Shown one piece after another: positions 684-59,701 of a stretch of DNA of 64,000 nucleotides. The notes below the pieces were generated by a model. That model was not told the DNA's origin. It ran no database searches and saw nothing but the letters and a program-made list of their open reading frames with translations. Made by a program: the position numbers and the translations under genes. The number at the start of each line of letters is the position of its first letter. The first letter of the stretch is position 1. The stretch is taken from the NCBI RefSeq assembly GCF_003435375.1, contig NZ_QWGL01000001.1, positions 496,001 through 560,000 of the forward strand, given 5' to 3'. This DNA comes from Clostridium sp. AM34-11AC (GTDB taxonomy: Bacteria > Bacillota > Clostridia > Lachnospirales > Lachnospiraceae).

Positions 684-1802
684 CTAATACAATTCACGAT
701 AAATCTTTAAAACACGTTCTGCATCAAGAAATACGAAATTATTCTTCATAAGCCGCTGCTGTCCAGTGATCACTTCCTCTGTCCAGCATTTCAGCATCTC
801 ATCGTCTGCCCCATAGGATTTCAGCGATTTTCTCTCCAGAATCTGATCGAGAAGCTTGAACATTTCTGTAAATGCCTGCTCCTTTCCACAGGAGAAAATA
901 TCTGCCAGATAGCCTGCCAGTTCGTCAATCGCGCCGTCTTTTTTGATCTCAAGATAATTATCGATCACTCCTTTAAAGATCGCATAGTTCGCTTCGCCAT
1001 GCGGAACATGGAAGGTTCCTCCAAGCGGATAACTCATTGCATGAACAGCTGCACATCCTGCTGTTCCAAATGCCAGCCCGGCATAATTCGATGCGATCAG
1101 GAAATCACTCAGCAACGGAATTCTTGCTTCTTTTCCCTCTTCGGACATTTTCTGATATCCATTTAAGATCATTTCAATAGCCTTATATCCAAACAATTTC
1201 GTATATGGCGTTGCTTTCGGTGAGAGACTGGACTCTACTGCGTGCACCAGAGCGTCGAGAGAACTGGTTGCAAAGACAGGATACGGCAGGTTTTCAAGAA
1301 ATTCCGGAATCAAAACCGCTTTATCTGCATACATCGCATTATCTGCAAGACCAAATTTTGTATTTCTCTTCAGGAATGCAAGGATTGCAATATTTGTCAC
1401 CTCAGATCCTGTTCCGCATGTTGTCGGAACAAGGATCAGTTCTCTATTTTTTTCAACCGGAAGTTCCCGGTCATATAATTTCTCGATGGGATGAAGATAT
1501 TTTAATGCAAAAATTTTTGAGATGTCAAGGACTGTTCCACCTCCAATCCCAATGACTCTTTTATGCTCGCCCATTTTCTGCATATCCGCGATCATTGCTT
1601 CCACCATCTCGTCATTAGGCTCGCCCTTTCCATACCTTTCCTGATAAAGCACATCACACTTTAAATTCAACGCGCCAAAATATGGCTGATAAATATACTC
1701 GTTTGTGATAACGAGATCTCCCTCTCCGATTGAAAATTCGTTTGCAAACTCTTTCACCTTATCGAAATGATATAATTCCGGTCGTACAACAATCTCCAGC
1801 AT
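684..1802 (-). CDS. 4hbD: NAD-dependent 4-hydroxybutyrate dehydrogenase (iron-containing ADH family)
   Basis: This 372-residue protein belongs to the iron-dependent group III alcohol dehydrogenases. It has the GIGGGTVLDISK dinucleotide-binding loop, the PTTCGTGSEVTNIA segment and the metal-binding HAMSYPLGGTFHVPHGEAN block. Length and sequence, including the opening (LYHFDKVKEF...GEGDLVITNEYIY), resemble the Clostridium kluyveri enzyme as I remember it. That enzyme interconverts succinate semialdehyde and 4-hydroxybutyrate. I chose ATG 1802 because the AAAGGAG ribosome site sits 6 bases before it; a GTG 15 bases upstream would overlap that site. The CoA-transferase and dehydratase for the same pathway lie at 13.4-16.2 kb, which supports the assignment. 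Other short-chain hydroxyacid or semialdehyde substrates are possible. Confidence 0.85.
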   Translation of the reverse strand: MLEIVVRPELYHFDKVKEFANEFSIGEGDLVITNEYIYQPYFGALNLKCDVLYQERYGKGEPNDEMVEAMIADMQKMGEHKRVIGIGGGTVLDISKIFALKYLHPIEKLYDRELPVEKNRELILVPTTCGTGSEVTNIAILAFLKRNTKFGLADNAMYADKAVLIPEFLENLPYPVFATSSLDALVHAVESSLSPKATPYTKLFGYKAIEMILNGYQKMSEEGKEARIPLLSDFLIASNYAGLAFGTAGCAAVHAMSYPLGGTFHVPHGEANYAIFKGVIDNYLEIKKDGAIDELAGYLADIFSCGKEQAFTEMFKLLDQILERKSLKSYGADDEMLKCWTEEVITGQQRLMKNNFVFLDAERVLKIYRELY

Positions 1803-1994
1803 ATTTTCTCCTTTCACGCGCCTTGATGCGAACGCTTTTGAACTCTATGTATAAAACTGGCTGCCGGACAGGAATTCCTGATTCCGCCGGCAGCCTACAA
1901 CAGACCTTTTGTCTTCTCATTCCGTCTCCGCCTGTTTTTCAGAACGAAGTGCCCTGCGGATCTGAGAATATACAAATGATAGGATCTCTATTTC

Positions 1995-2882: not shown

Positions 2883-2911
2883 GCTTTTGTCCTCCTCTGA
2901 TTTAATATGAT

Positions 2912-3232
2912 TTACTTCTGTTCCTCTTCATGGAAAAATTCATCCAAAGTCAGCATTGCCATACGGAATGATGGGAAACCGCCCATCGTAAGGACCTGTT
3001 CTACTGTTCCAAGGATCTCGTCCTTTGTTGCGCCATTCTGATATGCAAGCTTCGCATGTGCAAGGATAACCGGCTCCTGCTTTAAAATACATGCCATTGC
3101 GACATTGATCAGCTCACGGTATTTTCTCTCCAGCTTTGTATTGTCATTTACCAGCTGAGTTCTCCATGCAGTAATTTTGTCATTTAATTCCGGGTCAAGT
3201 TCCCCAAGAATCGTCCAATGATTTCTTGCCAT
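2912..3232 (-). CDS. carboxymuconolactone decarboxylase (CMD/AhpD-like) family protein
   Basis: This 106-residue protein is all-helical by appearance. It has the CMD-family core: a conserved histidine in EPVILAHAKLAYQNGATKDEI followed by VLTMGGFPSFRM. It lacks the CxxC redox pair of AhpD-type peroxidase partners, so it is closer to the gamma-carboxymuconolactone decarboxylase type. It is the first gene of the minus-strand unit leading into SMP-30, 4hbD and PrpD, with AAGGAG upstream of ATG 3232. A LysR-type box lies about 120 bases upstream at 3354-3368. The pairing of a CMD-like and a lactonase-like gene suggests lactone or dicarboxylate catabolism. The reaction itself is not identifiable from sequence. 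Confidence 0.8.
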   Translation of the reverse strand: MARNHWTILGELDPELNDKITAWRTQLVNDNTKLERKYRELINVAMACILKQEPVILAHAKLAYQNGATKDEILGTVEQVLTMGGFPSFRMAMLTLDEFFHEEEQK

Positions 3233-6217: not shown

Positions 6218-6997
6218 CTATTTTCTCATAAACTCCCCATGTGCCCTCTTCTCGAGAAACGCCGTCGTCGCTTCCAGATGATCCTGCGTTCCAAAGCAGG
6301 AAGCGAAGATATCTGTCTCTGTTCCAAGGCTTTCCTCCAGTCCGGCGCTCATAGCGGTGTTGATGGACTTTTTCATATTTTCCACTGCAAGCGGTGCCAT
6401 ATCCGCGATCGTATCCGCTAATTCAAAGGCTCTCTTTAACAGTTCATCCGGCTCAACGACATCCTCCACAACACCAAGCTTCAGCGCTTCCTCCGCAGAG
6501 AGGCTGCGCCCCGTATATAAAAGCTCCTTGGCTCTGGAAGCGCCAACCGTTCTCGGAAGAAGGACTGTACTGCCCCATCCCGGAATCCCACCGAGCTTGA
6601 TCGTCGGGATTCCGATCTTCGCGTCCGTGGCTGCCACAGTGATATCTGCCGCCAGGATCATCTCCATTCCACCACCGAGAGCATAGCCGCGGACCGCGCA
6701 GATCACCGGAACTCTGTGATTTAAAATTGACCGGATCATCTTTTTCCCGCGTCTTGAAAATTCTGCCGCTGTTGTTTCATTCAGCTGAACTTCCTCCTTG
6801 ATATCTCCACCTGCCGTAAATGCCCGCTCCCCTGCTGCCGTGAGAATCACGCAGCGGACTCCTGTATCCTTCTCCGCCATCTCCAGCGCCTCTGTGAGCT
6901 CGTCCAACATCTGGGAATTGAACGCGTTTAACGCCTTCGGACGGTTGATCGTGATCAGTGCTGTTGTGTCTTTTTTCTCGTAAATCATGAATTCCAT
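6218..6997 (-). CDS. enoyl-CoA hydratase/isomerase (crotonase) family protein
   Basis: This 259-residue crotonase-fold protein has the first oxyanion-hole segment AFTAGGDIKEE and the second one YALGGGMEMILAADI. In typical hydratases a catalytic Glu stands in a G-P-E-x motif. Here the matching segment reads IGIPTIKLGGIPGWGST, with Thr in that place. The second Glu is retained in AKELLYTGR. One missing acid suggests an isomerase, a modified hydratase or a changed substrate. It is the last gene of the seven-gene sigma-54 operon and overlaps the ligase gene by 13 bases. GGAG lies 9 bases before ATG 6997. It may act on crotonyl-type thioesters made by this operon or the divergent one. Confidence 0.88.
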   Translation of the reverse strand: MEFMIYEKKDTTALITINRPKALNAFNSQMLDELTEALEMAEKDTGVRCVILTAAGERAFTAGGDIKEEVQLNETTAAEFSRRGKKMIRSILNHRVPVICAVRGYALGGGMEMILAADITVAATDAKIGIPTIKLGGIPGWGSTVLLPRTVGASRAKELLYTGRSLSAEEALKLGVVEDVVEPDELLKRAFELADTIADMAPLAVENMKKSINTAMSAGLEESLGTETDIFASCFGTQDHLEATTAFLEKRAHGEFMRK

Positions 6998-8418
6998 GGC
7001 AATTTCTCCAATTCTTTGTAGATCGTTTTTCCGGACTCATTTTTCGGTACCTTGCCGATGGGAAGAACCCGGACACCTCCCGGGTAAAGTCCTGTTTTCT
7101 CTGTCAGGAACTCCGCTGCCTCCTCACAGGATGCCGGATCCATTCCTTCCATATAGATCCGCATCCGGTCATCCTCGCCGGTACAGGCGAGCTCCACGCC
7201 CTCATAGCGGCCGCGAAGAAGCTGCTCGATCTCGTCCATATTGACGCGCTTTCCATACATCTTCAAAAACCGTTTTTTCCGTCCGGTGATATAGTAATAT
7301 CCCTCTGCATCGCGCTTTGCCATGTCTCCGGTAAACAGAATGCCTCCGCGCTCATCTCCCTTTTCAAGATCTGCCGCACATTCCGCATATCCCATCGTGA
7401 CATTCGGACCGCTATACACAAGCTCCCCCACCGTATCCGGCTCTTTGATCTCTGTCGGGCCATCCTCCATGATCCGGAATTTTCCGCCCGGGATCGCGAT
7501 TCCCATGCTGCCGCATTTTCTGATGGCATCCTCTGCGGGAAGATAACTCATTCTCGCCGTCGCCTCTGTCTGCCCGTACATGACAATGAATTTTCGTCCT
7601 GAGGACATCGCATATTCCGCAAATTCCCGATGCAGGTTCACCGGAAGCTTGCCTCCTGCCTGCGTCATCGTCCGTAAGGACGGCAGCTCCATTTTAAAGA
7701 AATCAAGTCGCTTCAGGATCTGATAGGTGTAAGGGACGCCGCCAAAGGAAGTTGCTCCCTGCTCCCGGAAAAAATCCCAGAACTCCCGCTCAAACAGCGT
7801 ATGCTCTGTCAGCAGCACAGCTGCTCCCACCTGAAAATGGCTGTTCATGATCGAAAGCCCATACGTGTAGTTCATCGGCAGCGTTGTGATCGGACGTTCT
7901 GTCGGATCAAGTTCCAGATATTCCGCGATCGACTCCGCATTTGACGTAACATTTTTCCGGCTCTGTCTTACAAGCTTCGGGCTTCCCGTACTGCCGGAGG
8001 TCGTAAGGAGAAGCGCAAGCTCCGGATTCAGCCCCGTTTTCCGTTTGGCATCCCGCTTTGCAAGCTGATAACCAAAGCACTCCGAGCCCTCCAGTACCGT
8101 TCCATCCGTTCCTGTAAGGTCCTCCGGCATTCCAATCAGATAATCCGGCTCATAGGTCCCGATCAGTGTCCTTAAAAGCTCTCGGTCCATTCGATGCTCT
8201 AAAAGCAGAGGAACCACATGATTCCTAAGACAGCTCCTGTAATAAAGAACTGCTCCGACGGTATTCCTGCAATACAGGAACGCAAGCCTTCCCTCCTCCA
8301 GAAATTTCGATCGTTCCTCATATATCTTCTCAAATTCTCCGTAGGTGATCCGGTTTCCCTGATCATCCGCAAGCATCAGATTCTCTGAAAATTGATCATT
8401 TCTTTCAATAAAATTCAT
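6985..8418 (-). CDS. AMP-forming acyl ligase (adenylate-forming enzyme)
   Basis: This 477-residue adenylate-forming enzyme has the A3 phosphate loop TTSGSTGSPK at residues 139-148, the A5 motif YGQTEAT at 281-287, the GD...R hinge region (FTGDMAKRDAEGYYYITGR) and the C-terminal lysine in NESGKTIYKEL. The family activates a carboxylic acid with ATP and passes the acyl-AMP to CoA or a carrier-protein pantetheine. At 477 residues it is shorter than most acyl-CoA synthetases and closer in size to stand-alone adenylation proteins. An acyl carrier protein gene lies in the same operon, so loading of that carrier is a reasonable guess. AAGGAGG precedes the start. The substrate is unknown. Confidence 0.9.
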   Translation of the reverse strand: MNFIERNDQFSENLMLADDQGNRITYGEFEKIYEERSKFLEEGRLAFLYCRNTVGAVLYYRSCLRNHVVPLLLEHRMDRELLRTLIGTYEPDYLIGMPEDLTGTDGTVLEGSECFGYQLAKRDAKRKTGLNPELALLLTTSGSTGSPKLVRQSRKNVTSNAESIAEYLELDPTERPITTLPMNYTYGLSIMNSHFQVGAAVLLTEHTLFEREFWDFFREQGATSFGGVPYTYQILKRLDFFKMELPSLRTMTQAGGKLPVNLHREFAEYAMSSGRKFIVMYGQTEATARMSYLPAEDAIRKCGSMGIAIPGGKFRIMEDGPTEIKEPDTVGELVYSGPNVTMGYAECAADLEKGDERGGILFTGDMAKRDAEGYYYITGRKKRFLKMYGKRVNMDEIEQLLRGRYEGVELACTGEDDRMRIYMEGMDPASCEEAAEFLTEKTGLYPGGVRVLPIGKVPKNESGKTIYKELEKLPWNS

Positions 8419-8436
8419 CCGGCCCTCCTTTCTGCC

Positions 8437-10713
8437 CTACCGGATCGTCCGGGACAGAAGTTGGATCATGTCCTTTCCGTCCCAAACCAGATCCATCCAT
8501 AGTGTCTGCCCCACAGGGACGATCTGATGGGTACCGCGAAGCCTGTGATGCAGAACACATTCACGGAGTTCCTGCTTCTCCACGCCGAAATACACCAGGG
8601 CCTGTGTTTTTTCGGACACGGCAGAGATCCATTCTTCTCCGTTTTTCATATGATATTCCAGAAAGCTTCCAAACCGCATCCTTTGTTCCGAGGCTGTTCC
8701 GGGGATATCCTTCATTTCCGTGACATAAAGTCTGTTCTCGAATTTTCTGACCTTCACGATCCGCGCCCCGCCTGCTGCCAGCTCCCACAGATCACCATAT
8801 TTCACGCTGACCTTGTGCTCTGTGAGCCCATACCGCTTCGCAGTCTGGGCAAGTGCCTGCCAGAATCGCCCGGCCGCCGCTTCTCCCGTTTTTGGACAGC
8901 TCTCCCTCCAGAATACTGCCCGAGGACACGCGCAGGCGTTCTGATCCATGCTGAAGGTATCGTTGTAAAAACGCATTGCCGTCTCTGCCAGCCCCTCTTC
9001 CGACAGGGCAAGAACAGCATCCGCGTCAAACACAGCTATGGACGCGCGGTCCGGAAAAACGACCTCCGACGCTGACGGGCCGATCGGAATCTTCCGGATC
9101 TCTTCCACAGTCATATCACCGCCCCAGATCACCCGGCCGTCACACTCTCTGCTGAATTTCTCCGTTGCCTCCCGGTTTTCCCTCCCGTATGTGACAATGG
9201 AGATCCGTCGTTTCAGAACTTGAAATTCCGGCAGTCCCAAAAGCTCATCGATCAGCTCACAGACCTTTTCGCTTTCCGTGTTTCTTCGCGCCGACACCCG
9301 CACCCGGCAGGAATTTCCTGCCAGCAATCCGATCGCCATCGTGTATACAAACAGAAGCGGAACATTCGACGGTGCAATATGAAATGTTTGTCCCAGCCCA
9401 AGCCGGAAACCACAGTTTTCATACCGTTTTTTATAGCTTTCGAGGTTGGAACGCCTGAGCCAGAATCCGAGAGAACGCATTTCCTCTCCGGACAACATTC
9501 TCGGAAGTTCCCGGATCCGCTCTGAGAGTGCCGATAGAAACTCCATGGTGGTCTCCTCAAACGGGATTTCCGGTACCGATGTGATCTCCATCTCACCTGC
9601 TAAAAGAGTGACCGCCTCATTCTCCCCACGAAGCTCTTTTCCTGTCTCAAACGTATCGCTGCAGCCCCGGATTTCCGCCTTTGGGATCCTGCCCGTGATC
9701 TTAATATATTTTCCTTTTCTTCCGCATGGGCAGTCATCCTCTCCAACGATCATGCCCTTATCTTCCGTCAGCACCGAATGGCCCGGATAGGACCAGGCCA
9801 TCGGTGTCAGGACCTGGATCACGCCCTCTGTTCCATTTTTGCAACAGGAAAAGTCTTCCATATTTCGGATCAGAACATCCGAATAGCTGCTCACATGCAG
9901 ATGACCGCACTCACATTCCATGTAGATGCAGCCGGTCTGCTCCGCCATTCCGTAATAATTCCGCACATCGAGAATCCCGCAGACTTCCCGGAGTCCGTCC
10001 CGGAATTTCTCTGCGGACACCGCCTCCTTCGTCAGCTTCTTCCAGCCGCCGCCATGGATCAGGAAACCATGTTCCAGATGAAGCCTGTGACCCGATCTTT
10101 TCAACGGCTCATAAAAATATTTCCAGACCATATAGGTAAACCCAAACACAAGGACCGGTCCGTCACCGGCCTTCTCAAGAAATGCCTCCACAGTCTCAAG
10201 ATCCAGAGACATATCTTCCTTCAGCGCGTAACAGCGTTTTGACCCGAAGATCGAAAATCCCAGAATCCCGGCTCCCCTCGCTGAAAACAGCGCCCGGTCC
10301 CGCAGGACATTCGGCGCGTCGATGATCAGCATCGGAATCCGCTTTTCCCCGATAAAATCGGCCATGATCCGCTGCAGTGTCTGCTGCTGCCAGGCTGCGG
10401 TCCGCTCATCCAGAACGATCTTTGAGGTCTTCTGTCCCGTAGTCCCAGAAGAGGCCACCGTCTTAAACACAGCTCCTGTGGGAACGCTTCGAAGCTCCAT
10501 CTCCTTAAACATGGATACCGGAACCATGGGAATTTCTTCTTCTCTCCGTTGGCTTCCCGACACATCCCCCAGCGCACTGCAGCACCGGTCATAGATCAGG
10601 CACCGGTTTCTGTGGCTGTCTGTCAGCTCACTGAGCATATCCGCGTAGATTTTTTTCTTCTCCTCCGCTCCCAGCTCATAGGGGCCGCGTTTTAAAAGCT
10701 CTTCATAATTCAT
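8437..10713 (-). CDS. LuxE-LuxC fusion: acyl-protein synthetase plus acyl-CoA/fatty-acyl reductase
   Basis: This 758-residue two-domain protein corresponds to two bioluminescence-type fatty acid reductase subunits joined in one chain. Residues 1-355 are LuxE-like: SSGTTG at 88-93, NYYGMAEQTG at 252-261, and Cys351 in EIRGCSDTFE at the place of the LuxE acyl-acceptor cysteine. Residues about 385-758 are LuxC-like: FHIAPSNVPLLF at 444-455 in the nucleotide-binding region and DQNACACPR with candidate catalytic Cys594. The expected chemistry is ATP-dependent acyl transfer to enzyme cysteines and NADPH reduction to an aldehyde. No luxA/luxB luciferase genes are present. ATG 10713 overlaps the stop of the upstream hydrolase gene, with GAGGGAA before it. 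LuxE- and LuxC-like genes usually occur separately. Confidence 0.88.
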   Translation of the reverse strand: MNYEELLKRGPYELGAEEKKKIYADMLSELTDSHRNRCLIYDRCCSALGDVSGSQRREEEIPMVPVSMFKEMELRSVPTGAVFKTVASSGTTGQKTSKIVLDERTAAWQQQTLQRIMADFIGEKRIPMLIIDAPNVLRDRALFSARGAGILGFSIFGSKRCYALKEDMSLDLETVEAFLEKAGDGPVLVFGFTYMVWKYFYEPLKRSGHRLHLEHGFLIHGGGWKKLTKEAVSAEKFRDGLREVCGILDVRNYYGMAEQTGCIYMECECGHLHVSSYSDVLIRNMEDFSCCKNGTEGVIQVLTPMAWSYPGHSVLTEDKGMIVGEDDCPCGRKGKYIKITGRIPKAEIRGCSDTFETGKELRGENEAVTLLAGEMEITSVPEIPFEETTMEFLSALSERIRELPRMLSGEEMRSLGFWLRRSNLESYKKRYENCGFRLGLGQTFHIAPSNVPLLFVYTMAIGLLAGNSCRVRVSARRNTESEKVCELIDELLGLPEFQVLKRRISIVTYGRENREATEKFSRECDGRVIWGGDMTVEEIRKIPIGPSASEVVFPDRASIAVFDADAVLALSEEGLAETAMRFYNDTFSMDQNACACPRAVFWRESCPKTGEAAAGRFWQALAQTAKRYGLTEHKVSVKYGDLWELAAGGARIVKVRKFENRLYVTEMKDIPGTASEQRMRFGSFLEYHMKNGEEWISAVSEKTQALVYFGVEKQELRECVLHHRLRGTHQIVPVGQTLWMDLVWDGKDMIQLLSRTIR

Positions 10714-11374
10714 GAAATTCCCTCACCTCCCTGTTCATCCGGAACGGCTCTCCGTGTCCCGGAAAGATCCATGTCCCATCCGGAATCGTTTTCAGCCAGG
10801 GTTTCGCGTATTTTTCATATGCATCCCCATCTCCTCCCGGCAGTCTCGTAACGACCCTGTCCCCAGGAAGAAGATAGTCCCCGCAAAAGATACATCCGTC
10901 ATATCGGATCACCATACTCCCGGGGGTATGCCCCGGAAGCGGGATCAGCTCCAGCTGCCTTGTTGCAAATTTGCAACAGATCCGGTCCGTAAATGTCAGA
11001 TCCGCCTTCCGGCACTGAAACGGCGGATAATGTACAAGTTTCTTTTCCCCGCTTTTAAAGTACAAAAATGTCTCCATCATGCGGGACATATTTCTCGTCT
11101 GGTTCCCGATTCCCGCGCTGCAGGCCTCCGTTGCCGCCACTGTCACCGGATATGTCCTCCGGAGTTCATTTAATCCGCCGATGTGGTCACAATGTTCATG
11201 GGTCAGAAGGACCAGCCCCGGCATCAGGCCCCATTTCTGCAGCAGCTCCCGAATCGCTGTAAAATCGTTCGGATCGATGATCATACATTTGTCCTCTTCC
11301 CGGATCACATAGCAGTTGCTCTCCGTCACCGGTTCCACGATCCGGAAGATCCGGTCCGGATATGGATTATTCAA
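10703..11374 (-). CDS. metallo-beta-lactamase-fold hydrolase
   Basis: This 223-residue protein has the metal motif HEHCDH at residues 59-64, a later conserved His in PLPGHTPGSM, Asp in IFCGDYLLPGD and a final His in IFPGHGEP. This is the glyoxalase II-like binuclear metal site. Such small enzymes hydrolyse thioesters, lactones or phosphodiesters in the cytoplasm. The start appears to be TTG 11374, overlapping the end of the acyl carrier protein gene, with GGGG about 6 bases upstream. The carrier-protein and LuxE-LuxC neighbours make an acyl-thioesterase role attractive, but the fold alone cannot prove it. Confidence 0.87.
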   Translation of the reverse strand: MNNPYPDRIFRIVEPVTESNCYVIREEDKCMIIDPNDFTAIRELLQKWGLMPGLVLLTHEHCDHIGGLNELRRTYPVTVAATEACSAGIGNQTRNMSRMMETFLYFKSGEKKLVHYPPFQCRKADLTFTDRICCKFATRQLELIPLPGHTPGSMVIRYDGCIFCGDYLLPGDRVVTRLPGGDGDAYEKYAKPWLKTIPDGTWIFPGHGEPFRMNREVREFHEL

Positions 11375-11606
11375 TCGTTACCCCGTATCGTCCAAGAACT
11401 TCTTTTCCCTTTTCATAGGACGTGAAATCCAGAACATCCGGCGTATCCATATGAATATCGAACGCCTCTTCCAGCTCCCCTACAAGATCCATATGTCCGA
11501 TCGAATCCCAGAGCGGAATTCCGCGGTACTTTAAGCCCGGAAGCTCCTCCTCTGTCTTGTGAAACATTCCGATAAAGATTTTGTTGTATTTTTCAAGATT
11601 TGTCAT
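11367..11606 (-). CDS. acyl carrier protein
   Basis: This small acidic carrier protein of 79 residues starts MTNLEKYNKIF. The phosphopantetheine site is Ser35 in PLWDSIGHMDLVGELEEAF, the DSxGHM form seen in dedicated, non-FabD-type carriers. I chose ATG 11606, preceded by CGAGGG. An in-frame ATG at 11651 would add 15 residues of non-conserved sequence. It sits between the MaoC fusion and the hydrolase in the seven-gene operon and overlaps the hydrolase start. It probably carries the acyl group that the ligase loads, the MaoC and crotonase proteins modify and the LuxE-LuxC fusion reduces. That order is inference. Confidence 0.88.
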   Translation of the reverse strand: MTNLEKYNKIFIGMFHKTEEELPGLKYRGIPLWDSIGHMDLVGELEEAFDIHMDTPDVLDFTSYEKGKEVLGRYGVTIE

Positions 11607-11685
11607 TGTATTTGCCCTCGCTTGATTCTTTATATTTTTGATCTCTGCCATGAAATATCTCTTGTCTCATTGCATCAAAAAGATT

Positions 11686-11727
11686 GTGCCTTTTGTGTAA
11701 CAGGGAATTTCCTAATTACATAAAAAC
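11686..11727. repeat. mosaic intergenic repeat, copy 2 (degenerate hairpin only)
   Basis: GTGCC-TTTTGTGTAACAGGGAATTTCCT and the closing TACATAAAAA match the right-hand hairpin module of the repeats at 3472 and 56731, but the hairpin is shortened. It lies in the 105-bp gap between the MaoC fusion gene and the ACP gene, and its 3' end overlaps the MaoC fusion stop codon. Confidence 0.6.
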
Positions 11728-12467
11728 AGCTCCTTCGACATGAACTGTCTGCATTCTGCCCATACCACCGTCTCATGATCCTGGTTTTCACACACTCCGG
11801 AAAACGTCCCGATGTAACCGTCCTCCCGTTCCTTACAGGCTGTAAATGTCACCTTTGCGGTGATCATATCCCCGTAAAAAACAGGCTTCAAAAACCGCAC
11901 CTGCTCTTCGATAAAGACAGTCCCCTCACCCGGAAGCTTCGTGCCCATCACCGTTGAGATCAGGCTTGCCGCCAGAACACCGTGAACCACCGGCTTTCCG
12001 TAAGGCGTTTTTTTCGCGAATTCCGCATCCGTGTGAAGTCTGCTGTAATCTCCGGTGAGCGCCGCAAACCTGTCCACGTCATCCTTAAAGAACGTCTTTG
12101 TAACCTCTGCCGTGTCACCGATGCGAACATGGATTCTACTGTCTGTCATTTCTCCCGGCATCGCGTCTTTTCTGCCGCAAACTTCCACGTTTTTTTTCGC
12201 TTCCCTGTCCTGCTCCAGATACGTCTTTACCTCAGAAAAGCTCCGCTCCGTCGGGAGAAGAAACAGCTTTTTCTTTGGTGTAAGCCCATCCACTGACGCA
12301 CAGGCCCGGACGCAGCCGCAGACAACAAGTCCGATCTCGCATTCTTTCATGTCCCCGGCTGCAAAGTCAAACTCATGTTCCGGATATTGTTCCTGCAGGC
12401 GTTTTACCTGCCGTCCCCTGTTGTATACAGGATTGCAGCCGCCACAGTATTTGATGCCGATCCTCAT
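11712..12467 (-). CDS. Cys-rich (CGGCNP) domain fused to MaoC-type (R)-enoyl hydratase
   Basis: This 251-residue fusion has a Cys-rich N-terminal part (about 1-95): KYCGGCNPVYNR (Cys8, Cys11), Cys43, and VVCGCVRAC (Cys50, Cys52, Cys56). The spacing suggests metal or Fe-S binding, though it is not a family I can name with certainty. Residues about 112-251 form a MaoC hot-dog domain with the hydratase dyad in GDYSRLHTD (Asp140, His145) and the following FAKKTPYGKPVVHGVL. It should add or remove water across an enoyl thioester, on CoA or the neighbouring ACP. ATG 12467 overlaps the upstream stop as ATGA, which implies translational coupling. Confidence 0.85.
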   Translation of the reverse strand: MRIGIKYCGGCNPVYNRGRQVKRLQEQYPEHEFDFAAGDMKECEIGLVVCGCVRACASVDGLTPKKKLFLLPTERSFSEVKTYLEQDREAKKNVEVCGRKDAMPGEMTDSRIHVRIGDTAEVTKTFFKDDVDRFAALTGDYSRLHTDAEFAKKTPYGKPVVHGVLAASLISTVMGTKLPGEGTVFIEEQVRFLKPVFYGDMITAKVTFTACKEREDGYIGTFSGVCENQDHETVVWAECRQFMSKELFLCN

Positions 12468-12760
12468 ATGCATTCCTGCGCTTCATGGTTATGATTCAGA
12501 AGCTTTCTCGCGAAATCCAGAAGCTCCGGACTGATCTCATTGACGAGAACAACCTCCTTCACCTCCGGAATCTCTTTCTGGACCTCTGCCGCAATCAGTT
12601 CCTCCGTTGTCAATCTCGCTGACGGACATCCGGAACAGTGTCCGGTCAGGCGGATCTTTAAAACTCCATCCGCGTACTCTACGATCTGTACGTCGCCCTC
12701 ATGGGATAACAGCGCCGGACGGACCTTCTTTTCCAATACTTCATCGATTCTTTCTATCAT
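12464..12760 (-). CDS. NifU C-terminal-domain (Nfu-type) Fe-S protein
   Basis: This 98-residue protein begins MIERIDEVLEKKVRPAL and has the CxxC pair of NifU/Nfu C-terminal domains, HCSGCPSARL (Cys42, Cys45). Such proteins bind or deliver Fe-S clusters. ATG 12760 has an ideal AGGAGG 7-8 bases upstream; the longer reading frame to 12829 starts inside the predicted leader. It is the first gene of the minus-strand sigma-54 operon. The divergent operon encodes a [4Fe-4S] dehydratase and the next gene has a Cys-rich domain. Cluster supply to one of them is a plausible role. Confidence 0.88.
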   Translation of the reverse strand: MIERIDEVLEKKVRPALLSHEGDVQIVEYADGVLKIRLTGHCSGCPSARLTTEELIAAEVQKEIPEVKEVVLVNEISPELLDFARKLLNHNHEAQECI

Positions 12761-12859: not shown

Positions 12860-12876
12860 AGCAATTTTTATGCCAA
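12860..12876 (-). promoter_or_regulatory. sigma-54 (-24/-12) promoter for the seven-gene acyl operon
   Basis: On the minus strand the sequence is TTGGCATAAAAATTGCT. It has the invariant GG and GC exactly 10 bases apart and fits the RpoN consensus (TTGGCAC-N5-TTGCT). Transcription would start near 12849, about 90 bases before the NifU-like gene. A CCGGTT-N7-AACCGG inverted repeat at 12882-12900 lies just upstream. Its sequence CCCGGTTTTCAGG recurs exactly at 12920-12932. Confidence 0.75.
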
Positions 12877-13003: not shown

Positions 13004-13021
13004 TGTTGCGTTTTTGCAACA
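13004..13021. promoter_or_regulatory. candidate upstream activator site between divergent sigma-54 promoters
   Basis: TGTTGC-GTTTTT-GCAACA is a perfect inverted repeat. It lies about 130 bases from the left -24 element and 230 bases from the right one, within the usual enhancer distances. A GCAACA half site follows at 13044. GCAACA also occurs in the mosaic repeat family, so this may be a repeat remnant. The remaining part of the 663-bp gap is AT-rich with no gene. Confidence 0.35.
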
Positions 13022-13248: not shown

Positions 13249-13265
13249 TTGGCACATGGATTGCT
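13249..13265 (+). promoter_or_regulatory. sigma-54 (-24/-12) promoter for abfD operon
   Basis: TTGGCACATGGATTGCT matches the RpoN consensus at essentially every position, with GG and GC 10 bases apart. The predicted start near 13276 gives a leader of about 148 bases before abfD. Confidence 0.85.
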
Positions 13266-13423: not shown

Positions 13424-14875
13424 ATGGCATTAATGACAGGCGAACAGTATGTAGAGAGCATGAGAAAATTGAATCTTCAGGTTTATATGTTTGGTAAGAA
13501 GATCGAAAATCCAGTTGACGATCCGATCCTCCGTCCGTCCTTAAACTCTGTAAAAGCAACCTACGATCTGGCTCAGGATCCGGAGTACGCAGACTTAATG
13601 ACTGCAAAATCCATTCTTACAGGTGAGACCATCAACCGTTTCACACATATCCATCAGAGCACCGATGACCTGATCAAGAAGGTTAAAATGCAGAGACTCT
13701 GTGGACAGAAGACCGCAGCCTGTTTCCAGCGCTGTGTCGGCATGGACGCGTTCAACGCCGTTTACAGCACAACCTATGAGACAGATGAAAAGTACGGAAC
13801 ACATTACCATGAGAACTTCAAGAAATTCCTCCAGTACGTTCAGGAGCATGACTACACCGTTGACGGCGCTATGACAGACCCGAAGGGTGACCGTTCCCTT
13901 CCGCCGCACTTACAGGCAGATCCGGATCTTTACTTAAGAGTCGTTGAGAGAAGACCGGACGGAATCGTTGTCCGCGGCGCGAAAGCTCACCAGACAGGTT
14001 TCGTAAACTCTCACGAGGTTATCGTAATGCCGACACAGGCGATGGGCGAGGACGACAAGGACTACGCAGTTGCATTCGCAGTTCCGACAGACGCAAAGGG
14101 CATCTTCATGATCGTCGGCCGTCAGTCCTGTGATACAAGAAAGCTTGAAGGCAGCGAGATCGATGTAGGAAACTCCCAGTTCGGTGGAACAGAGGCTCTC
14201 GTAATCTTTGATGATGTATTCGTACCGAATGACCGTATCTTCTTAAACGGCGAGAACGAGTTCGCAGGTGTTCTGGTTGAGCGTTTCGCAGGTTACCACA
14301 GACAGTCCTACGGCGGATGTAAGGTTGGTGTCGGCGATGTCCTGATCGGTGCTGCTGCCGTTGCCGCAGACTTCAACGGTGCTCAGAAGGCATCCCATAT
14401 CAAGGACAAGCTCATCGAGATGACTCACTTAAATGAGACACTTTACTGCTGTGGTATTGCATGCTCCGCAGAGGGCCGTCCGACAAAATCCGGCAACTAC
14501 CTGATCGACCTTCTTCTCGCAAACGTCTGCAAACAGAATGTTACAAGATTCCCGTACGAGATCGCTCGTCTTGCAGAGGATATCGCCGGTGGTCTTATGG
14601 TTACCGCACCGTCCGAGAAAGACTTAAAGGATCCGTTCCTGGGCAAGTATGTTGACAAATATTTCCGCGGTGTAAACGCTGTTTCCACAGAAAACCGTCT
14701 CCGCATCATGAGACTCATCGAGAACCTGACTCTTGGCGCAGCCGCTGTCGGATACCGCACAGAGTCCATGCACGGCGCAGGTTCCCCACAGGCACAGAGA
14801 ATCATGATCTCCCGTCAGGGCAACCTCGCAATGAAGAAGAAACTTGCGAAAGATATCGCAAAAATCACAGAATAA
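13424..14875 (+). CDS. abfD: 4-hydroxybutyryl-CoA dehydratase / vinylacetyl-CoA delta-isomerase
   Basis: This 483-residue flavin and [4Fe-4S] enzyme converts 4-hydroxybutyryl-CoA to crotonyl-CoA through vinylacetyl-CoA. All four cluster ligands of the Clostridium aminobutyricum enzyme have counterparts: Cys100 and Cys104 in AACFQRCVGMDAF, and His292 and Cys299 in YHRQSYGGCKVG. The protein is close to AbfD along its whole length, for example GAMTDPKGDRSLPP and AGSPQAQRIMISRQGN. I chose ATG 13424, which gives MALMTGEQYVES as in the family, with AAGGGAAG upstream. The frame stays open to 13256, but that part lies in the promoter and leader. It is the first gene of a sigma-54-controlled operon with the CoA-transferase and a permease. 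Confidence 0.95.
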   Translation: MALMTGEQYVESMRKLNLQVYMFGKKIENPVDDPILRPSLNSVKATYDLAQDPEYADLMTAKSILTGETINRFTHIHQSTDDLIKKVKMQRLCGQKTAACFQRCVGMDAFNAVYSTTYETDEKYGTHYHENFKKFLQYVQEHDYTVDGAMTDPKGDRSLPPHLQADPDLYLRVVERRPDGIVVRGAKAHQTGFVNSHEVIVMPTQAMGEDDKDYAVAFAVPTDAKGIFMIVGRQSCDTRKLEGSEIDVGNSQFGGTEALVIFDDVFVPNDRIFLNGENEFAGVLVERFAGYHRQSYGGCKVGVGDVLIGAAAVAADFNGAQKASHIKDKLIEMTHLNETLYCCGIACSAEGRPTKSGNYLIDLLLANVCKQNVTRFPYEIARLAEDIAGGLMVTAPSEKDLKDPFLGKYVDKYFRGVNAVSTENRLRIMRLIENLTLGAAAVGYRTESMHGAGSPQAQRIMISRQGNLAMKKKLAKDIAKITE

Positions 14876-14893: not shown

Positions 14894-16204
14894 ATGAGTT
14901 GGGAAAACGAATATAAATCTAAGCTCACCACTGCCGAAAAGGCAGTGGAGCTTATTAAATCCGGCAACCGCGTTGTGATCGGCCATGCCTGCGCAGAGCC
15001 GTCCTATCTGGTAGACGCAATGGTTGCAAATGCGGAAAGCTACCACGATGTAGAGATCGTCCACATGGTCGCTATGGGAAAAGCCGGTTATGCACAGCCG
15101 GGAATGGAATCCCATTTCCGCCACAACGCTCTTTTCGTTGGCGGCACTACAAGAAAAGCAGTCGCAGAGGGCCGCGGTGACTATACTCCGTGCTTCTTCT
15201 ACCGCATTCCATCATTATTTACAAACGGAAGTCTCCCGGTCGATGTAGCGCTCGTTCAGGCTACTCCGCCGGATGAAAATGGAAACATGAGTCTCGGAAT
15301 TTCCATCGACTACACACTTCCTGCAGCAAGAGCCGCAAAAAGCGTAATCGTTCAGGTAAACCATGAGCTCCCGAGAACCGGCGGTGACAGCTGCATCAAT
15401 GCATCAGACGCAAATATTGCCGCGATCGTGGAGCATGATGCCCCGATCATTGAACTCGCTCCGCCGAAGATCGGCGATGTGGAGCGCGCCATCGGCGCAA
15501 ACTGCGCATCCCTGATCCATGACGGTGATACCCTTCAGCTTGGGATCGGCGCAATTCCGGACGCTGTTCTTCTCTTCTTAACAGAAAAGAAAGACCTCGG
15601 CATCCACTCTGAGATGTTCTCCGACGGCGTTGTGGAACTGGTTGAAAAAGGTGTTATCACGAACACAAAGAAAAAGACCCATGTCGGCAAGTTTGTCGCA
15701 AACTTCTTAATGGGTACAAAGAGACTTTACGATTTCGTCAACAACAATCCGGATGTTGAGATGTATCCGGTTGATTATGTAAACAATCCGGTCGTTGTCA
15801 TGAAGGAAGACAACATTGTCTCCATCAACTCCTGCGTCCAGATCGACCTGATGGGACAGGCCGCTTCCGAGACTATCGGATATACCCAGATCTCCGGTGT
15901 CGGAGGTCAGGTGGATTTCGTCCGCGGTGCTGCCATGGCAAAGAATGGCCGTTCCATTCTCGCCTTCCCGTCCACAGCCGCGAAGGGAACCGTTTCCAAG
16001 ATTGTTCCGCTGCTTGACGAAGGCGCAGCCGTTACAACCTCCAGAAATGACGTGGATTACGTCATCACGGAATATGGTATAGCAAAATTGTCCGGAAAGA
16101 CCTTAAAACAGCGTGCGCATGCTCTGATCGAGATCGCCCACCCGAATTTCCGCGACGAATTAAAGAAAGTTTACGAGGAGCGGTTCCACTGTTCCTATGA
16201 GTAA
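14894..16204 (+). CDS. abfT: 4-hydroxybutyrate CoA-transferase
   Basis: This 436-residue family I-type CoA-transferase is related to acetyl-CoA hydrolases/transferases. The catalytic glutamate is Glu240 in LGIHSEMFSDGVVEL, and the glycine-rich block ISGVGGQVDFVRGA is intact. Length (438 in C. aminobutyricum AbfT) and many segments agree with the 4-hydroxybutyrate enzyme, which moves CoA from acetyl-CoA or butyryl-CoA to 4-hydroxybutyrate. GGGAGG precedes the start, 18 bases after abfD, so both are co-transcribed. Together they take 4-hydroxybutyrate to crotonyl-CoA. Related butyrate:acetyl-CoA transferases are the main alternative, but the abfD neighbour argues against them. Confidence 0.9.
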   Translation: MSWENEYKSKLTTAEKAVELIKSGNRVVIGHACAEPSYLVDAMVANAESYHDVEIVHMVAMGKAGYAQPGMESHFRHNALFVGGTTRKAVAEGRGDYTPCFFYRIPSLFTNGSLPVDVALVQATPPDENGNMSLGISIDYTLPAARAAKSVIVQVNHELPRTGGDSCINASDANIAAIVEHDAPIIELAPPKIGDVERAIGANCASLIHDGDTLQLGIGAIPDAVLLFLTEKKDLGIHSEMFSDGVVELVEKGVITNTKKKTHVGKFVANFLMGTKRLYDFVNNNPDVEMYPVDYVNNPVVVMKEDNIVSINSCVQIDLMGQAASETIGYTQISGVGGQVDFVRGAAMAKNGRSILAFPSTAAKGTVSKIVPLLDEGAAVTTSRNDVDYVITEYGIAKLSGKTLKQRAHALIEIAHPNFRDELKKVYEERFHCSYE

Positions 16205-16342
16205 ACGGCGAACTCCCTGCCGTTAGTCCGGTGCCCTCGGGATACGGCAGGATGAACCATCAGTCCTGTACCGGCCTTTCAGTTTCTGATCGTCTTCCGG
16301 TACGGGACTGCACTTCCATAATGTATGATAGGAGTTACACAT

Positions 16343-17713
16343 ATGGCCTTACATCGTGAAAATGGCAAAGAACAGCCCTTTATTCCGGCCGGTCCATTTA
16401 AGATCCGGATCCCGTTTATCCATTATCGCTGGGAAATTTCCGAATGTCTCCAGGCGATCTTAATGTGTGCGACCTGTCTCGGTGCGATCCCGGTTCTCCA
16501 GGAGCTCTTAGGGGTTCCTTACGAAGTCGCATGGAGCATGGTCATCATCAACGGTTTCTTCTACAATCTCCACTCTTTATTAGGAGATCCAGTTGTACCG
16601 GGATGGATCACACCGGCAATTCCCCTTGTAACTGCATTTTTAACGCTCACAGAGCAGGGACCTGAGCGTGTACAGACCATGATCGCCTTGCAGCTTGTTG
16701 TCGGACTGATCTTTCTCTTTATGGGAATCACAGGTCTTGCAAGTAAGATCATCGGTGCGATCCCGAATGCGATCAAATCCGGAATTCTCCTCGGCGCAGG
16801 CTTCTCTGCGATCATGGGTGAATTCAAAGCAGGCGGACGTGCCGGTCTTTATCCGGTAACCGTTCTCGTCGGTTCCATCTTTGCATACTTCCTTCTCTTC
16901 TCTCTTTTATTTAAGAAGATGAAGGCAAAAAATAAACTCTGGTACATGGTCGGCAACTTCGGCATGCTGCCGGCGGTCATCGTAGCCGTGATCGTAGGAC
17001 CTCTATCCGGTGAGCTTCCGGCACCGAATCTGGTTCTTGGTTCAATTATCAAGATTCCGGATTTCGCAATCATCTGGAATACCTTAAGCCCGTTCGCGAT
17101 CGGTTTCCCGAGCATCGGAAAGATCATTTCCACGATTCCGACAGCCATCGCTGTTTATATCATCGCATTCGGCGATTTCGTTTCCAGTGAGCAGCTGATC
17201 CGCAGCGCTGAGGAAGTCCGTACCGATGAGCACATCGACTTCAACGCGAACCGTTCCAACATCATCAGCGCGATCAGAAACATCATTCAGGCGTTTATCT
17301 GCCCGTATCCGAGCCTTTGCGGTCCGCTCTGGGCAGCCGTTACAGCCGCAGTTTCCGAGCGATACAAAGACGGCAGAAAAGCAATGGATTCCATTTTCAG
17401 CGGAGTCGGTACCTTCCGTTGGTCCACCTTTATCTGTGTTGCCCTTGTTCCGGTTGCATCTTTTGTACAGCCGATCCTTCCTGCAGCTTTGTCTCTGACT
17501 CTTATCGTGCAGGGCTTTGTCTGCTGCCAGATCGGACTCAGCATGATCCACACAGATTCCGAGCGCGGACTCGCCGGTGTTATGGCAGCTGTTCTCGCGA
17601 TCAAAGGCGCAAGCTGGGGACTCGCAGTCGGCGTTATCCTCTACGTTCTGATCTACGGACATTTCAAGAGCGTTGAGGTTCCGGAAAAAGCATTAAACAC
17701 ACAGACAGAATAA
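16343..17713 (+). CDS. polytopic membrane permease (7+7 nucleobase/sulfate-carrier-like)
   Basis: This 456-residue hydrophobic protein has about 12-14 membrane segments and a charged loop near residues 280-300 (IRSAEEVRTDEHIDFNANRS). The general look (AIPNAIKSGILLGAGFSAIMGE, ALSLTLIVQGFVCCQIGLSMI) recalls the xanthine/uracil and SulP/BenE 7+7 inverted-repeat folds, but I cannot place it in one family. I chose ATG 16343, preceded by AGGAG; the frame is open from 16325. It is third in the abfD operon and followed by a terminator. Uptake of 4-hydroxybutyrate or a precursor is the contextual inference. Confidence 0.8.
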   Translation: MALHRENGKEQPFIPAGPFKIRIPFIHYRWEISECLQAILMCATCLGAIPVLQELLGVPYEVAWSMVIINGFFYNLHSLLGDPVVPGWITPAIPLVTAFLTLTEQGPERVQTMIALQLVVGLIFLFMGITGLASKIIGAIPNAIKSGILLGAGFSAIMGEFKAGGRAGLYPVTVLVGSIFAYFLLFSLLFKKMKAKNKLWYMVGNFGMLPAVIVAVIVGPLSGELPAPNLVLGSIIKIPDFAIIWNTLSPFAIGFPSIGKIISTIPTAIAVYIIAFGDFVSSEQLIRSAEEVRTDEHIDFNANRSNIISAIRNIIQAFICPYPSLCGPLWAAVTAAVSERYKDGRKAMDSIFSGVGTFRWSTFICVALVPVASFVQPILPAALSLTLIVQGFVCCQIGLSMIHTDSERGLAGVMAAVLAIKGASWGLAVGVILYVLIYGHFKSVEVPEKALNTQTE

Positions 17714-17989: not shown

Positions 17990-19393
17990 ATGGGATACAC
18001 AAAAACAAATGAAGCAGTGTTCAGCAATGAATTGCTGGACACGGTAATTGAGCATTCCTTTGACGGGATCTACATCACGGACGGTCAGGCAACTACCCTG
18101 AAAGTAAACCGCTCCTATCTTACGATCTCCGGACTGAAGGTGTCCGAGGTATTAGGCGTCAACATGAGGGAGCTTGTAAAAAATGGAACGATCTCCGCTT
18201 CCGGAACGCTGATGGCGATGGAGCAGAAGCGGCCGATCACGATCCAGCAGGAATTTAAGACCGGAAAACGGGCGCTTATCACAAGCAGTCCAATCTTTAA
18301 CAATAAGAATGAGATCGTTCTGGTGATCACGAACGTGCGCGACATCACTGAGCTCTACCACCTGAAGGAAGAGGCCACACATCTGAAAACCGAGGGAAAT
18401 CTTCTGAGGGAAGAGCTTTTAAGAATCCGAACGAGCCACCGGAATCAATGCAGTATGGTGGTGGAGGACTCCAGAACCGAAAAGGTCCTGTCCATGATCG
18501 ACCGGGTAGCGCCCCTTGATACAACCGTGATCCTGTTCGGTGAAACCGGAGTCGGAAAAGAAGTCTTTGCGAAATATATTTATCAGCACAGCGCCAGAAA
18601 AAATAAACCGTTTATCAAAGTAAACTGTGGCGCGATCCCTGCCAATCTGGTAGAAAGTGAGTTATTTGGATATGAAAAAGGTGCATTCACGGGAGCTGAC
18701 AAAAATGGAAAAATGGGTCTGTTCGAACTGGCGAACACCGGAACGATTTTCCTCGACGAGGTAGGAGAACTGCCCCTCGATATGCAGGTAAAACTTCTGC
18801 GCGTCTTACAGGAGCAGGAATTTGAGCGGATCGGCGGAAGAAAGCCGGTAAAAGTGGATGTCCGGGTCCTTGCCGCTACAAACCGTGATCTCGAGGAGAT
18901 GGTAAAACAGAAGACGTTCCGCCAGGATCTCTATTACCGTCTGATGATCTTCCCGGTCCATATCCCGCCGCTCAGGGAACGTCCGGATGACATTCTTCCA
19001 TTGGCGCAGCTCTTTTTACAGACTTTGAACCGAAAATATGATTTTAAAAAATACCTCTCCCCTCTTTCCGCCAAGATGATGCAGGACTACAGCTGGCCCG
19101 GAAATATCCGTGAGCTCAGAAACATTATTGAGCGGGCTGTCATCATCAGCAACGAGGATGAGATCGGTCCCGATGCTCTCCACTTATTCACAGTAGAAGA
19201 TCGCCCGGAGACAAAGTCCAGAGTCCTCGACCCTGTAAAGGACTTAAAAACCGCTATGGAAGAGCTGGAACTGGAATATATCAACCATGCCTACGAAAAG
19301 TACGGAAACGTCCGTGAGGCCGCAGAGAGCCTCGGAATGACACCGTCAACGTTCGTCCGGAAGAGACAGAAATATACGAAAGATGCGGATTGA
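17990..19393 (+). CDS. sigma-54-dependent activator with PAS sensor (PAS-AAA+-HTH)
   Basis: This 467-residue bacterial enhancer-binding protein has an N-terminal PAS-like domain at about residues 13-125 ([20 protein letters not shown]). The AAA+ domain follows: Walker A GETGVGKE at 184-191, the sigma-54 contact loop GAFTGA at 231-236, Walker [10 protein letters not shown] at 252-260, and an arginine-finger region ([25 protein letters not shown]). The C-terminus is a Fis-type helix-turn-helix ([22 protein letters not shown]). All parts needed to drive RpoN polymerase are intact. It lies directly behind the abfD operon, whose promoter and the opposing one are of the -24/-12 type. It is the obvious candidate regulator of both. 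The PAS ligand is unknown. Confidence 0.95.
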
Positions 19394-19433: not shown

Positions 19434-19529
19434 GATGTGATATATTGATGATATCTGAACAAAGGTAACATGTACATGTGGACTGTCACTGACAGCCCTC
19501 AAACCAATGATTCTGAAAGGGGTATCACT

Positions 19530-20192
19530 ATGAAAAAAATCGGCGCGATTACTGTCGGCCAGTCTCCCAGAGTTGACCTGACTCCTGAGATCCAGCCCAT
19601 CCTCGGAGACTCGGTTGAGATCATTCAGGCAGGAGCTCTGGACGGACTTTCAAAGGAAGAGATCGCAAAGTTTGTTCCGCGTCCCGGTGAAAATGTCCTT
19701 GTGTCGAGACTTACAGACGGAACCTCAGCGACATTCGGAGAATCCTACATTCTTCCCCGCCTGCAGCTTTGCATTGACGATCTCGAACAGCAGGGTGTTT
19801 CCCTGATTCTTTTCCTCTGCACCGGAGAATTTCCGGCTGAATTTCGCTCCAATGTCCCCCTGATCTTCCCTGACCATATCTTAAAGGGACTGATCCCGGC
19901 CATCGGCGTGAAAAATCTGTCTGTCATCATTCCTACAAAGGAACAGGAGGCACAGATGCCCGGAAAATGGAAAGACTGCTGTGACTCTCTCCACGTGACC
20001 TCTGTATCCCCATACGGTGATCCTCTCGCTGTTTTTGCAGCCGCAAAGGAGATCCCCGCCGATACAGATCTGATCCTTTTAGACTGCATCGGATACACCA
20101 TCGAAATGAAGGAGCGCATCCAGGCTCTGACCCAAAAACCAGTCCTTCTTTCCCGTACACTCGTAGCACGGGTGATTCGTGAATTAGTCTAA
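19530..20192 (+). CDS. AroM family protein
   Basis: This 220-residue protein begins MKKIGAITVGQSPRVDLTPE, the typical AroM opening, and has FLCTGEFPAEF and LILLDCIGYTIEMK with conserved cysteines as in aspartate/glutamate-racemase-like folds. The biochemical role of AroM proteins is not established. I chose ATG 19530, preceded by AAAGGGG; the frame is open 60 bases further upstream without a ribosome site. It follows the sigma-54 activator gene by 137 bases and is followed by a hairpin terminator. A metabolic role in the 4-hydroxybutyrate/acyl regulon, such as isomerising an acid, is possible but unproven. Confidence 0.87.
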   Translation: MKKIGAITVGQSPRVDLTPEIQPILGDSVEIIQAGALDGLSKEEIAKFVPRPGENVLVSRLTDGTSATFGESYILPRLQLCIDDLEQQGVSLILFLCTGEFPAEFRSNVPLIFPDHILKGLIPAIGVKNLSVIIPTKEQEAQMPGKWKDCCDSLHVTSVSPYGDPLAVFAAAKEIPADTDLILLDCIGYTIEMKERIQALTQKPVLLSRTLVARVIRELV

Positions 20193-59465: not shown

Positions 59466-59467
59466 AA

Positions 59468-59562: not shown

Positions 59563-59701
59563 ATTCCACACATAGAAAGGGGGAGGCAAATCCTAAGTTT
59601 GTTTCCCTTTTTCTGTACACTCACAGAGATTTAACTGTTCCATTCTCTTCACATTCTTCCCGGTGAAGAGAACAGGACAGCTATGAAAGGATTGGATTTA
59701 T

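Follow-up and report, generated by a model that had tools for sequence, protein, structure and literature searches.

Close relatives of the locus studied here come from a predicted sigma-54 regulon and from flagellin glycosylation islands. Table 1 of a 2019 sigma-54 survey lists 'abfD-nifU-hyp-ach-golB, acp-caiC-luxEC' as predicted XanR targets in Clostridium, under 'Butyrate/Butanol synthesis' (PMC6615313); in the accessible portion of that paper, XanR occurs twice in the main text, and its targets are not discussed in the section on butyrate and alcohols. As far as their accessible text goes, other papers place the AbfD family under sigma-54 control in Clostridia (PMC12316311) and describe a set of acyl carrier protein (ACP), ligase, LuxE and LuxC in flagellin glycosylation islands (PMC7874193, PMC4875605). 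Here we examine a 64,000-nt stretch of Clostridium sp. AM34-11AC (contig NZ_QWGL01000001.1; hereafter the window), in which a minus-strand operon at 12760–6218 encodes a single-chain LuxE-LuxC protein next to a unit encoding 4-hydroxybutyryl-CoA dehydratase (AbfD). The locus is apparently a variant of the system predicted in 2019, whose enzymology seems to be unstudied. The original prediction, made from this sequence alone, knew of no described pathway with just these genes, a view not borne out by the XanR regulon and the flagellin islands on the available parts of those sources (PMC6615313, PMC7874193, PMC4875605). We found no paper joining 4-hydroxybutyryl-CoA with LuxC, a weak negative since the relevant table uses the names 'abfD' and 'luxEC'.

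The best explanation of the whole is that the locus comprises two modules under apparently common control, which would reduce a C4 acid to an aldehyde on a carrier protein; our confidence in it is evenly balanced. Based on translated open reading frames (ORFs) and Pfam matches, seven co-directional minus-strand genes fill 12760–6218 as a compact operon, transcribed in the order NifU-type, CGGC::MaoC, ACP, metallo-hydrolase, LuxE-LuxC, AMP-ligase and crotonase, with overlaps of 8–13 bases at four of the six ORF junctions (11 bases between the metallo-hydrolase and LuxE-LuxC ORFs). All six parts named in the original prediction were recovered in place, and they fit the loading of an acid on a carrier, (de)hydration at C2–C3 and reduction to an aldehyde, as it had proposed. 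Its parts list was nevertheless incomplete, as it omitted the NifU-type gene at 12464–12760 and did not recognize the fusion partner of MaoC as a CGGC domain.

The single-chain protein consists of a LuxE-type acyl-protein synthetase (residues ~1–358) and a LuxC-type reductase (~387–758). Both active cysteines claimed for it, i.e., Cys351 (RGCSD) in the LuxE-type and Cys594 (DQNAC) in the LuxC-type half, were invariant throughout an alignment of 22 sequences that contains the window's own. The LuxE half matches 7xc6_E by sequence, and Cys351 falls on the GCS of that chain, while Cys594 is presumably the LuxC catalytic cysteine. For an AlphaFold model (predicted local distance difference test, pLDDT, 85.8 overall), the best match among solved structures was chain A of 7xc6, the LuxC-LuxE complex of Photobacterium. 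The NCBIfam equivalog cut-offs for long-chain LuxE and LuxC were not reached (61.5 bits against 550 for LuxE and 23.1 against 750 for LuxC). An assembly join, raised originally as a possible source of the fusion, is ruled out by a 99%-identical 758-residue representative covering 1596 member sequences and by four more full-length fusions at 84–89% identity. The suggested search for the fused protein and its neighbours yielded 84 usable rows, of which 24 were fused and 19 were AbfD-linked (AbfD within 12 kb). The fusion is thus not unique to this operon: on the tree of 84 rows the fusion label needs seven changes, at least six of them forced by well-supported branches, and in the near relatives L021, L026 and L028 LuxE and LuxC are separate ORFs.

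The AbfD and CoA-transferase genes face the Lux operon divergently. Cys156, Cys160, His348 and Cys355 of AbfD (539-residue reading) align with Cys99, Cys103, His292 and Cys299 of 1u8v, the 4Fe-4S cluster ligands, and the window protein is a bona fide 4-hydroxybutyryl-CoA dehydratase; alignment to the solved enzyme, together with the sequence, places its start at ~13424 and not at 13256. The only two exact TGGCA-N6-TTGC matches in the window lie in the divergent gap, one for each unit, suggesting that the Lux operon and the abfD unit are apparently under common sigma-54 control. Across loci L001–L100, the strict motif occurred 36 times in 1.72 Mb, and a tally against the locus maps placed 25 of the 36 just upstream of, and pointing into, AbfD, NifU/CGGC or transporter genes. 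Promoter pairs were sought in 21 regions from 18 sources and in L109 and L110. Overall, 12 related loci carried them: nine had paired matches for AbfD and for the NifU/CGGC or transporter side (L021, L026, L029, L036, L079, L081, L085, L086 and L095), L028 had matches before each of two separated units, and L109 and L110 also carried the pair. One match only was found in L061 and L094. The candidate activator palindrome between the two window promoters, TGTTGC-N6-GCAACA, was exact in L095, had one mismatch in L021, L026 and L028, and was absent from the remaining scanned regions of relatives. Further copies of the palindrome occur in window coding sequence, including an exact one at 10961–10978 inside the metallo-hydrolase gene.

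The strongest sequence clue that both modules may act on a common compound is an AbfD-bound CGGC domain that forms one chain with the Lux module's dehydratase. In a set of 299 genomes, all from the family to which G001 (the genome of L026) belongs, AbfD (E ≤ 1e-100) was found in 24 and the CGGC domain in 16, all within the 24 (Fisher 6e-21); since relatives share descent, this p-value and those for LuxE-LuxC co-occurrence below overstate the evidence. Free-standing CGGC ORFs of 83–94 residues were neighbours of AbfD, either immediately or with an intervening NifU, in L083, L085, L087–L089, L091 and L093, while in L090 the CGGC ORF stood with NifU and AbfD was on another contig. The lone CGGC ORFs at L087:6852-7103, L088:5727-5999 and L089:6630-6908 (83–92 residues) lie in loci with other 4-hydroxybutyrate/butyrate genes. 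The free-standing protein is likely an unstudied AbfD accessory. The NifU-type gene was likewise found near AbfD in stretches that have no Lux genes (L085, L087 and L101–L105). The fusion partner of CGGC is MaoC in the window and in relatives, and a FabZ-type dehydratase in L048, L059, L061, L079 and L084. L001-type relatives had no CGGC in the Lux operon; of these, L002, L015 and L030 have MaoC there, and none was found in L004 and L007. In five of five such genomes examined (L101–L105), NifU, AbfD, CGGC, CoA-transferase and iron-containing alcohol dehydrogenase stood together elsewhere. Comparison of the CGGC domain with solved structures gave nothing significant (best thioredoxin, E 1.2), and a Pfam scan of one free-standing CGGC protein gave no family at E 0.1. 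Database entries of the fusion proteins carry PF27236, which we read as their CGGC half.

AbfD was in view in at least 15 among the 80 LuxE-LuxC profile loci listed. All 19 AbfD-linked rows (the window's included) had ACP, ligase and NifU, 18 had CGGC and 17 had MaoC or FabZ; among the 65 other rows, NifU was found in one, CGGC in three and a metallo-hydrolase in 19. One 30-row clade (Shimodaira–Hasegawa-like approximate likelihood ratio 100) contained 17 of the 19 AbfD-linked rows. L082 and L083 were drawn outside it, and we do not claim a second, independent recruitment beside AbfD, as an approximately unbiased test on 41 of the 84 rows left a single origin standing (p-AU 0.12). Of the 13 clade rows without AbfD in view, 12 were represented by tested genomes, eight of which have AbfD elsewhere, vs 4 of 23 tested genomes for other LuxE-LuxC rows (Fisher 0.006); the thirteenth, L096, is in G056, which has AbfD. 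Within the 299 genomes, LuxE-LuxC (E ≤ 1e-100) was found in 9 of 24 AbfD genomes vs 11 of 275 others (Fisher 3e-6). The two shared a contig in six of the nine; they were on different contigs in G237 and G264, and in G056 contigs end inside the module. Taken together, the conserved neighbourhood, CGGC co-occurrence, promoter pairs and genome tests led us to reject the Lux operon as a chance neighbour of AbfD. With a conserved AbfD pairing and apparent co-regulation, the C4 substrate originally suggested from that pairing is a fair guess. In L041, L042, L044, L046 and L060, the module stands beside SucD-like, 4-hydroxybutyrate-dehydrogenase-like, AbfD and CoA-transferase genes, with Bcd-Etf genes downstream (in L041 only to EtfB, near the locus end), i.e., it sits inside a C4 pathway.

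The other operon genes are consistent with carrier-based chemistry to differing degrees. In the CGGC::MaoC fusion, CGGC covers residues ~1–95 (CGGCN...YNR...CGCxxxC) and MaoC ~105–253; the MaoC half has Aeromonas caviae PhaJ (1iq6, 38% identity) as its top fold match, and Asp142/His147, presumably the PhaJ-type catalytic pair, were invariant in the 12 sequences aligned. A. caviae PhaJ is a C4–C6 enzyme. With PhaJ as best structural match and the Asp/His pair kept, the simplest reading is that this half would interconvert crotonyl and (R)-3-hydroxybutyryl groups. The hydration/dehydration originally expected fits the PhaJ-type half. In the crotonase, positions 112 and 132 correspond to the two catalytic glutamates of enoyl-CoA hydratase: Glu112 is kept, but Thr132 replaces the second, as in its four nearest orthologues, so an ordinary hydratase role cannot be assumed. 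Among 17 relatives compared, the second glutamate was kept in 13 of 13 other crotonases of the fetched loci. The ACP ORF is open from 11651, with a probable start at 11606 (its Ser50 is counted on the 94-residue reading); no Pfam family matched it, despite its DSIGHM site. The metallo-hydrolase has HEHCDH (HxHxDH) and the later His/Asp motifs, and we propose, by analogy with LuxD, that it may act as an acyl-ACP thioesterase. The AMP-ligase carries complete motifs (TSGSTGSPK, YGQTEA and NESGK) and is proposed to load ACP; its solved relatives, none close, include CoA ligases and beta-aminoacyl-ACP synthetases. The NifU-type gene starts at the ATG at residue 24 of its 121-residue ORF. Coordinates of all features are collected in Table 1.

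Table 1 Features of the Lux operon, the divergent AbfD unit and their surroundings, in window coordinates.
Feature	Coordinates	Strand	Evidence
Iron-containing alcohol dehydrogenase, 4-hydroxybutyrate-dehydrogenase-like	684..1817	-	30sm Cvir-Hbd2 E 9.4e-133
Crotonase-superfamily protein	6218..6997	-	PF00378 E 5.2e-67
AMP-forming acid ligase	6985..8418	-	PF00501 E 6.5e-41
LuxE-LuxC single chain, 758 aa	8437..10713	-	PF04443 E 6.5e-48, PF05893 E 4.6e-27
Glyoxalase-II-like metallo-hydrolase	10703..11374	-	PF00753 E 1.3e-19
Acyl carrier protein	11367..11606	-	DSIGHM phosphopantetheine-type site
CGGC domain fused to PhaJ-type MaoC (R)-enoyl hydratase/dehydratase	11712..12473	-	PF01575 E 1.4e-19
NifU C-terminal-domain (Nfu-type) protein, first operon gene	12464..12760	-	PF01106 E 1.5e-22
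Sigma-54 promoter match before Lux operon, TGGCATAAAAATTGC	12861..12875	-	exact TGGCA-N6-TTGC
Candidate activator site, palindrome TGTTGC-N6-GCAACA between both promoters	13004..13021	.	
Sigma-54 promoter match before abfD operon, TGGCACATGGATTGC	13250..13264	+	exact TGGCA-N6-TTGC
4-Hydroxybutyryl-CoA dehydratase (AbfD)	13424..14875	+	1u8v E 2.9e-246
4-Hydroxybutyrate CoA-transferase type	14894..16204	+	3eh7 E 3e-164, 3gk7 E 3.6e-147
Membrane transporter	16325..17713	+	homologues near AbfD in other loci
PAS / sigma-54 activator (enhancer-binding protein)	17990..19393	+	PF00158 E 5.3e-72

Starting from the parts, motifs, promoter matches, fusions and co-occurrence seen in the sequences, we propose the following scheme, in which substrate, order, direction and product are our reading. 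In module A, the alcohol dehydrogenase, CoA-transferase and AbfD would convert 4-hydroxybutyrate to crotonyl-CoA, with the NifU-type and CGGC proteins as possible AbfD accessories. Module B (PhaJ-type hydratase, ACP, metallo-thioesterase, LuxE-LuxC and acid ligase) would form a carrier-based carboxylate reductase, in which the ligase charges ACP with a C4 acid (crotonate or a hydroxybutyrate) and the PhaJ half hydrates or dehydrates the chain at C2–C3. LuxD frees the acid in the lux system, and the metallo-hydrolase may release it here in the same manner; the LuxE half would then adenylate the acid and keep it on Cys351, from which the acyl group would move to Cys594 of the LuxC half for NADPH-dependent reduction to the aldehyde, with an alcohol dehydrogenase possibly completing the path to the alcohol. 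The PAS-type sigma-54 activator would turn on both units together. Overall, the most likely outcome is that a C4 acid derived from crotonyl-CoA would be reduced via ACP to an aldehyde. An aldo/keto reductase gene follows the ligase in L002, L019, L020, L027 and L030, in keeping with the formation of an aldehyde. L083 has an alpha/beta hydrolase, a member of LuxD's fold class, after LuxC, and with the window metallo-hydrolase this suggests a position for a LuxD-like thioesterase. A more specific and decidedly improbable version is an ACP-tethered route in Clostridia that starts at 4-hydroxybutyrate, passes through crotonyl units and yields a C4 hydroxy-aldehyde and a diol, e.g., (R)-1,3-butanediol, in which CGGC would serve AbfD and be fused to the hydratase to channel crotonyl from AbfD to the Lux-type reductase.

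Several observations weigh against this scheme. Two ATP-using acid activators, the ligase and LuxE, are costly for a fermentation, nothing in the sequence fixes the chain length, the ligase may make CoA esters instead of loading ACP, the window crotonase lacks one of the two hydratase glutamates, and the LuxE-LuxC model falls below pLDDT 50 at residues 343–348 and 350–366, which include Cys351. The metallo-hydrolase was present in 10 of the 19 AbfD-linked rows, and no aldo/keto reductase was found in L004, L007 and L015. Furthermore, AbfD is missing within 12 kb in 65 of the 84 rows, and ACP occurs in 55 and the ligase in 61 of these, so the Lux-type core does not need 4-hydroxybutyrate. As for common control, a looser TGGC-N7-TTGC motif has four window matches, two of them elsewhere (9324 and 53600), and a one-mismatch scan of TGGCA-N6-TTGC, with 14 window matches vs 16.9 expected, was as a whole without enrichment. 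No sigma-54 match was found in L082, L083 or the scanned parts of L035, L041, L044 and L060, nor in the 177 bases scanned of L048; a LysR gene is present in L041, L042, L044, L046 and L060. In L085, L109 and L110, the promoter pair lies between AbfD and NifU with no LuxE-LuxC seen in the stretch, so the pair marks AbfD and its accessories first; in the other paired loci, the Lux genes come after NifU/CGGC.

Two ATP-dependent activations argue for biosynthesis or another reaction order, and module B may accordingly be pictured as a cassette that turns crotonyl or hydroxybutyryl units, via an aldehyde, into a small signal, a lipid or a cell-surface modification, like the cassettes of glycan islands. 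The ATP cost, the ACP/ligase/LuxE/LuxC core also found in flagellin glycosylation islands and the many rows without AbfD all favour this reading, which we nevertheless consider unlikely; the apparent sigma-54 control in common with catabolic genes and the results of our family scans speak against it. These covered 20 ORFs at 684–21683 and 10 more beyond 20 kb, of 31 ORFs of ≥250 residues; no glycosyltransferase was found in either set, nor pse genes among the 20, and a flagellin or glycan context for the locus was not seen in the ORFs scanned. The modules could also be metabolic neighbours only, sharing an activator and a place while acting on unrelated compounds. They are separated in L001-type relatives (by ~146 kb on a single contig in G314), LuxE-LuxC at E ≤ 1e-100 is missing from 15 of the 24 genomes with AbfD, and the three promoter pairs without Lux genes in view point the same way; however, the AbfD-bound CGGC is fused to the module B dehydratase (MaoC in one locus set, FabZ in another), and AbfD co-occurs with clade LuxE-LuxC across genomes, which makes mere neighbourhood rather improbable. 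Most doubtful is an oxidative direction, in which LuxC would form an acyl-enzyme by oxidizing an aldehyde, ATP would be made from AMP and pyrophosphate by LuxE or the ligase, and the acid would enter the crotonyl-CoA pathway. Sigma-54 control and the transporter fit catabolism, and aldehyde dehydrogenase folds are among the matches of the LuxC half, but no aldehyde source was identified, LuxE-LuxC proteins are known as reductases, and enzymes of this kind rarely form ATP.

Homologues of several neighbouring genes recur near AbfD. The transporter, for which no family scored above cut-off, has homologues there in L026, L028, L059, L061, L079, L083, L085 and L086; the activator, whose nearest NCBIfam model is PrdR (below cut-off), has relatives there in L026 and L029; and the alcohol dehydrogenase, which in this window lies outside the Lux operon, has family members there in L028, L041, L042, L044, L046, L060 and L079. 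An AroM-family gene (19470–20192) directly follows the activator. Between the alcohol dehydrogenase and a LysR gene, 1995–3232 holds gluconolactonase-like (SGL) and carboxymuconolactone-decarboxylase-like genes, possibly for lactone use. Two matches to Clostridiales-1 RNA (RF01699; 56855–57015, minus strand, and 59451–59568, plus strand) flank an extracellular solute-binding protein gene (57765–59465), and no tRNAs were found in the window. Elsewhere, genes for a NuoF-type protein and a large molybdopterin/pyridine-nucleotide oxidoreductase, families assigned from a scan of L030 alone, lie upstream of the Lux operon in L030 (2239–7509) as well as L004, L007, L015 and L019, suggesting that L001-type Lux operons are tied to redox enzymes.

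The carrier-based scheme offers a testable role for a Lux-type reductase outside luminescence and glycans, and marks the NifU-type and CGGC proteins as likely accessories of a radical Fe-S dehydratase in butyrate/C4 metabolism. Should a C4 aldehyde or diol prove to be the product, it would be an unrecognized output of 4-hydroxybutyrate metabolism. The window shares with luminous LuxC-LuxD-LuxE the two domains LuxE and LuxC, their active cysteines and an adjoining hydrolase gene, but the chain is fused, scores lie far below the equivalog cut-offs and a metallo-hydrolase replaces LuxD; no LuxD serine hydrolase was found among the operon ORFs scanned and no luciferase among those scanned in the window. 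With the flagellin glycosylation islands (Aeromonas group II, Enterobacteriaceae), it has in common the four-gene ACP/AMP-synthetase/LuxE/LuxC core, while the islands, in the accessible parts of their descriptions, have a 3-oxoacyl-ACP reductase and AbfD is not named for them. Like the 4-hydroxybutyrate/succinate-to-butyrate pathway, it has AbfD, a 4-hydroxybutyrate CoA-transferase and a 4-hydroxybutyrate-dehydrogenase-like enzyme; no Bcd-Etf was found among the window ORFs scanned, and a carrier-protein reductase module is added. The likeness to the XanR regulon covers abfD, nifU, a CoA-transferase ('ach') and acp-caiC-luxEC, with 'hyp' read as CGGC; golB was not identified in the window or in L083, which otherwise has the same gene kinds. 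Sigma-54 matches, as sequence matches, precede both window units, and an activator of the right type is present, likened by type and not by XanR sequence or motif. The window differs in that its units are divergent, its LuxE-LuxC is one chain, a metallo-hydrolase and a crotonase are added, and CGGC is fused to a PhaJ-type hydratase within the Lux operon. These fused CGGC proteins, of which the accessible text of the 2019 survey makes no mention (PMC6615313), provide a physical clue joining both modules.

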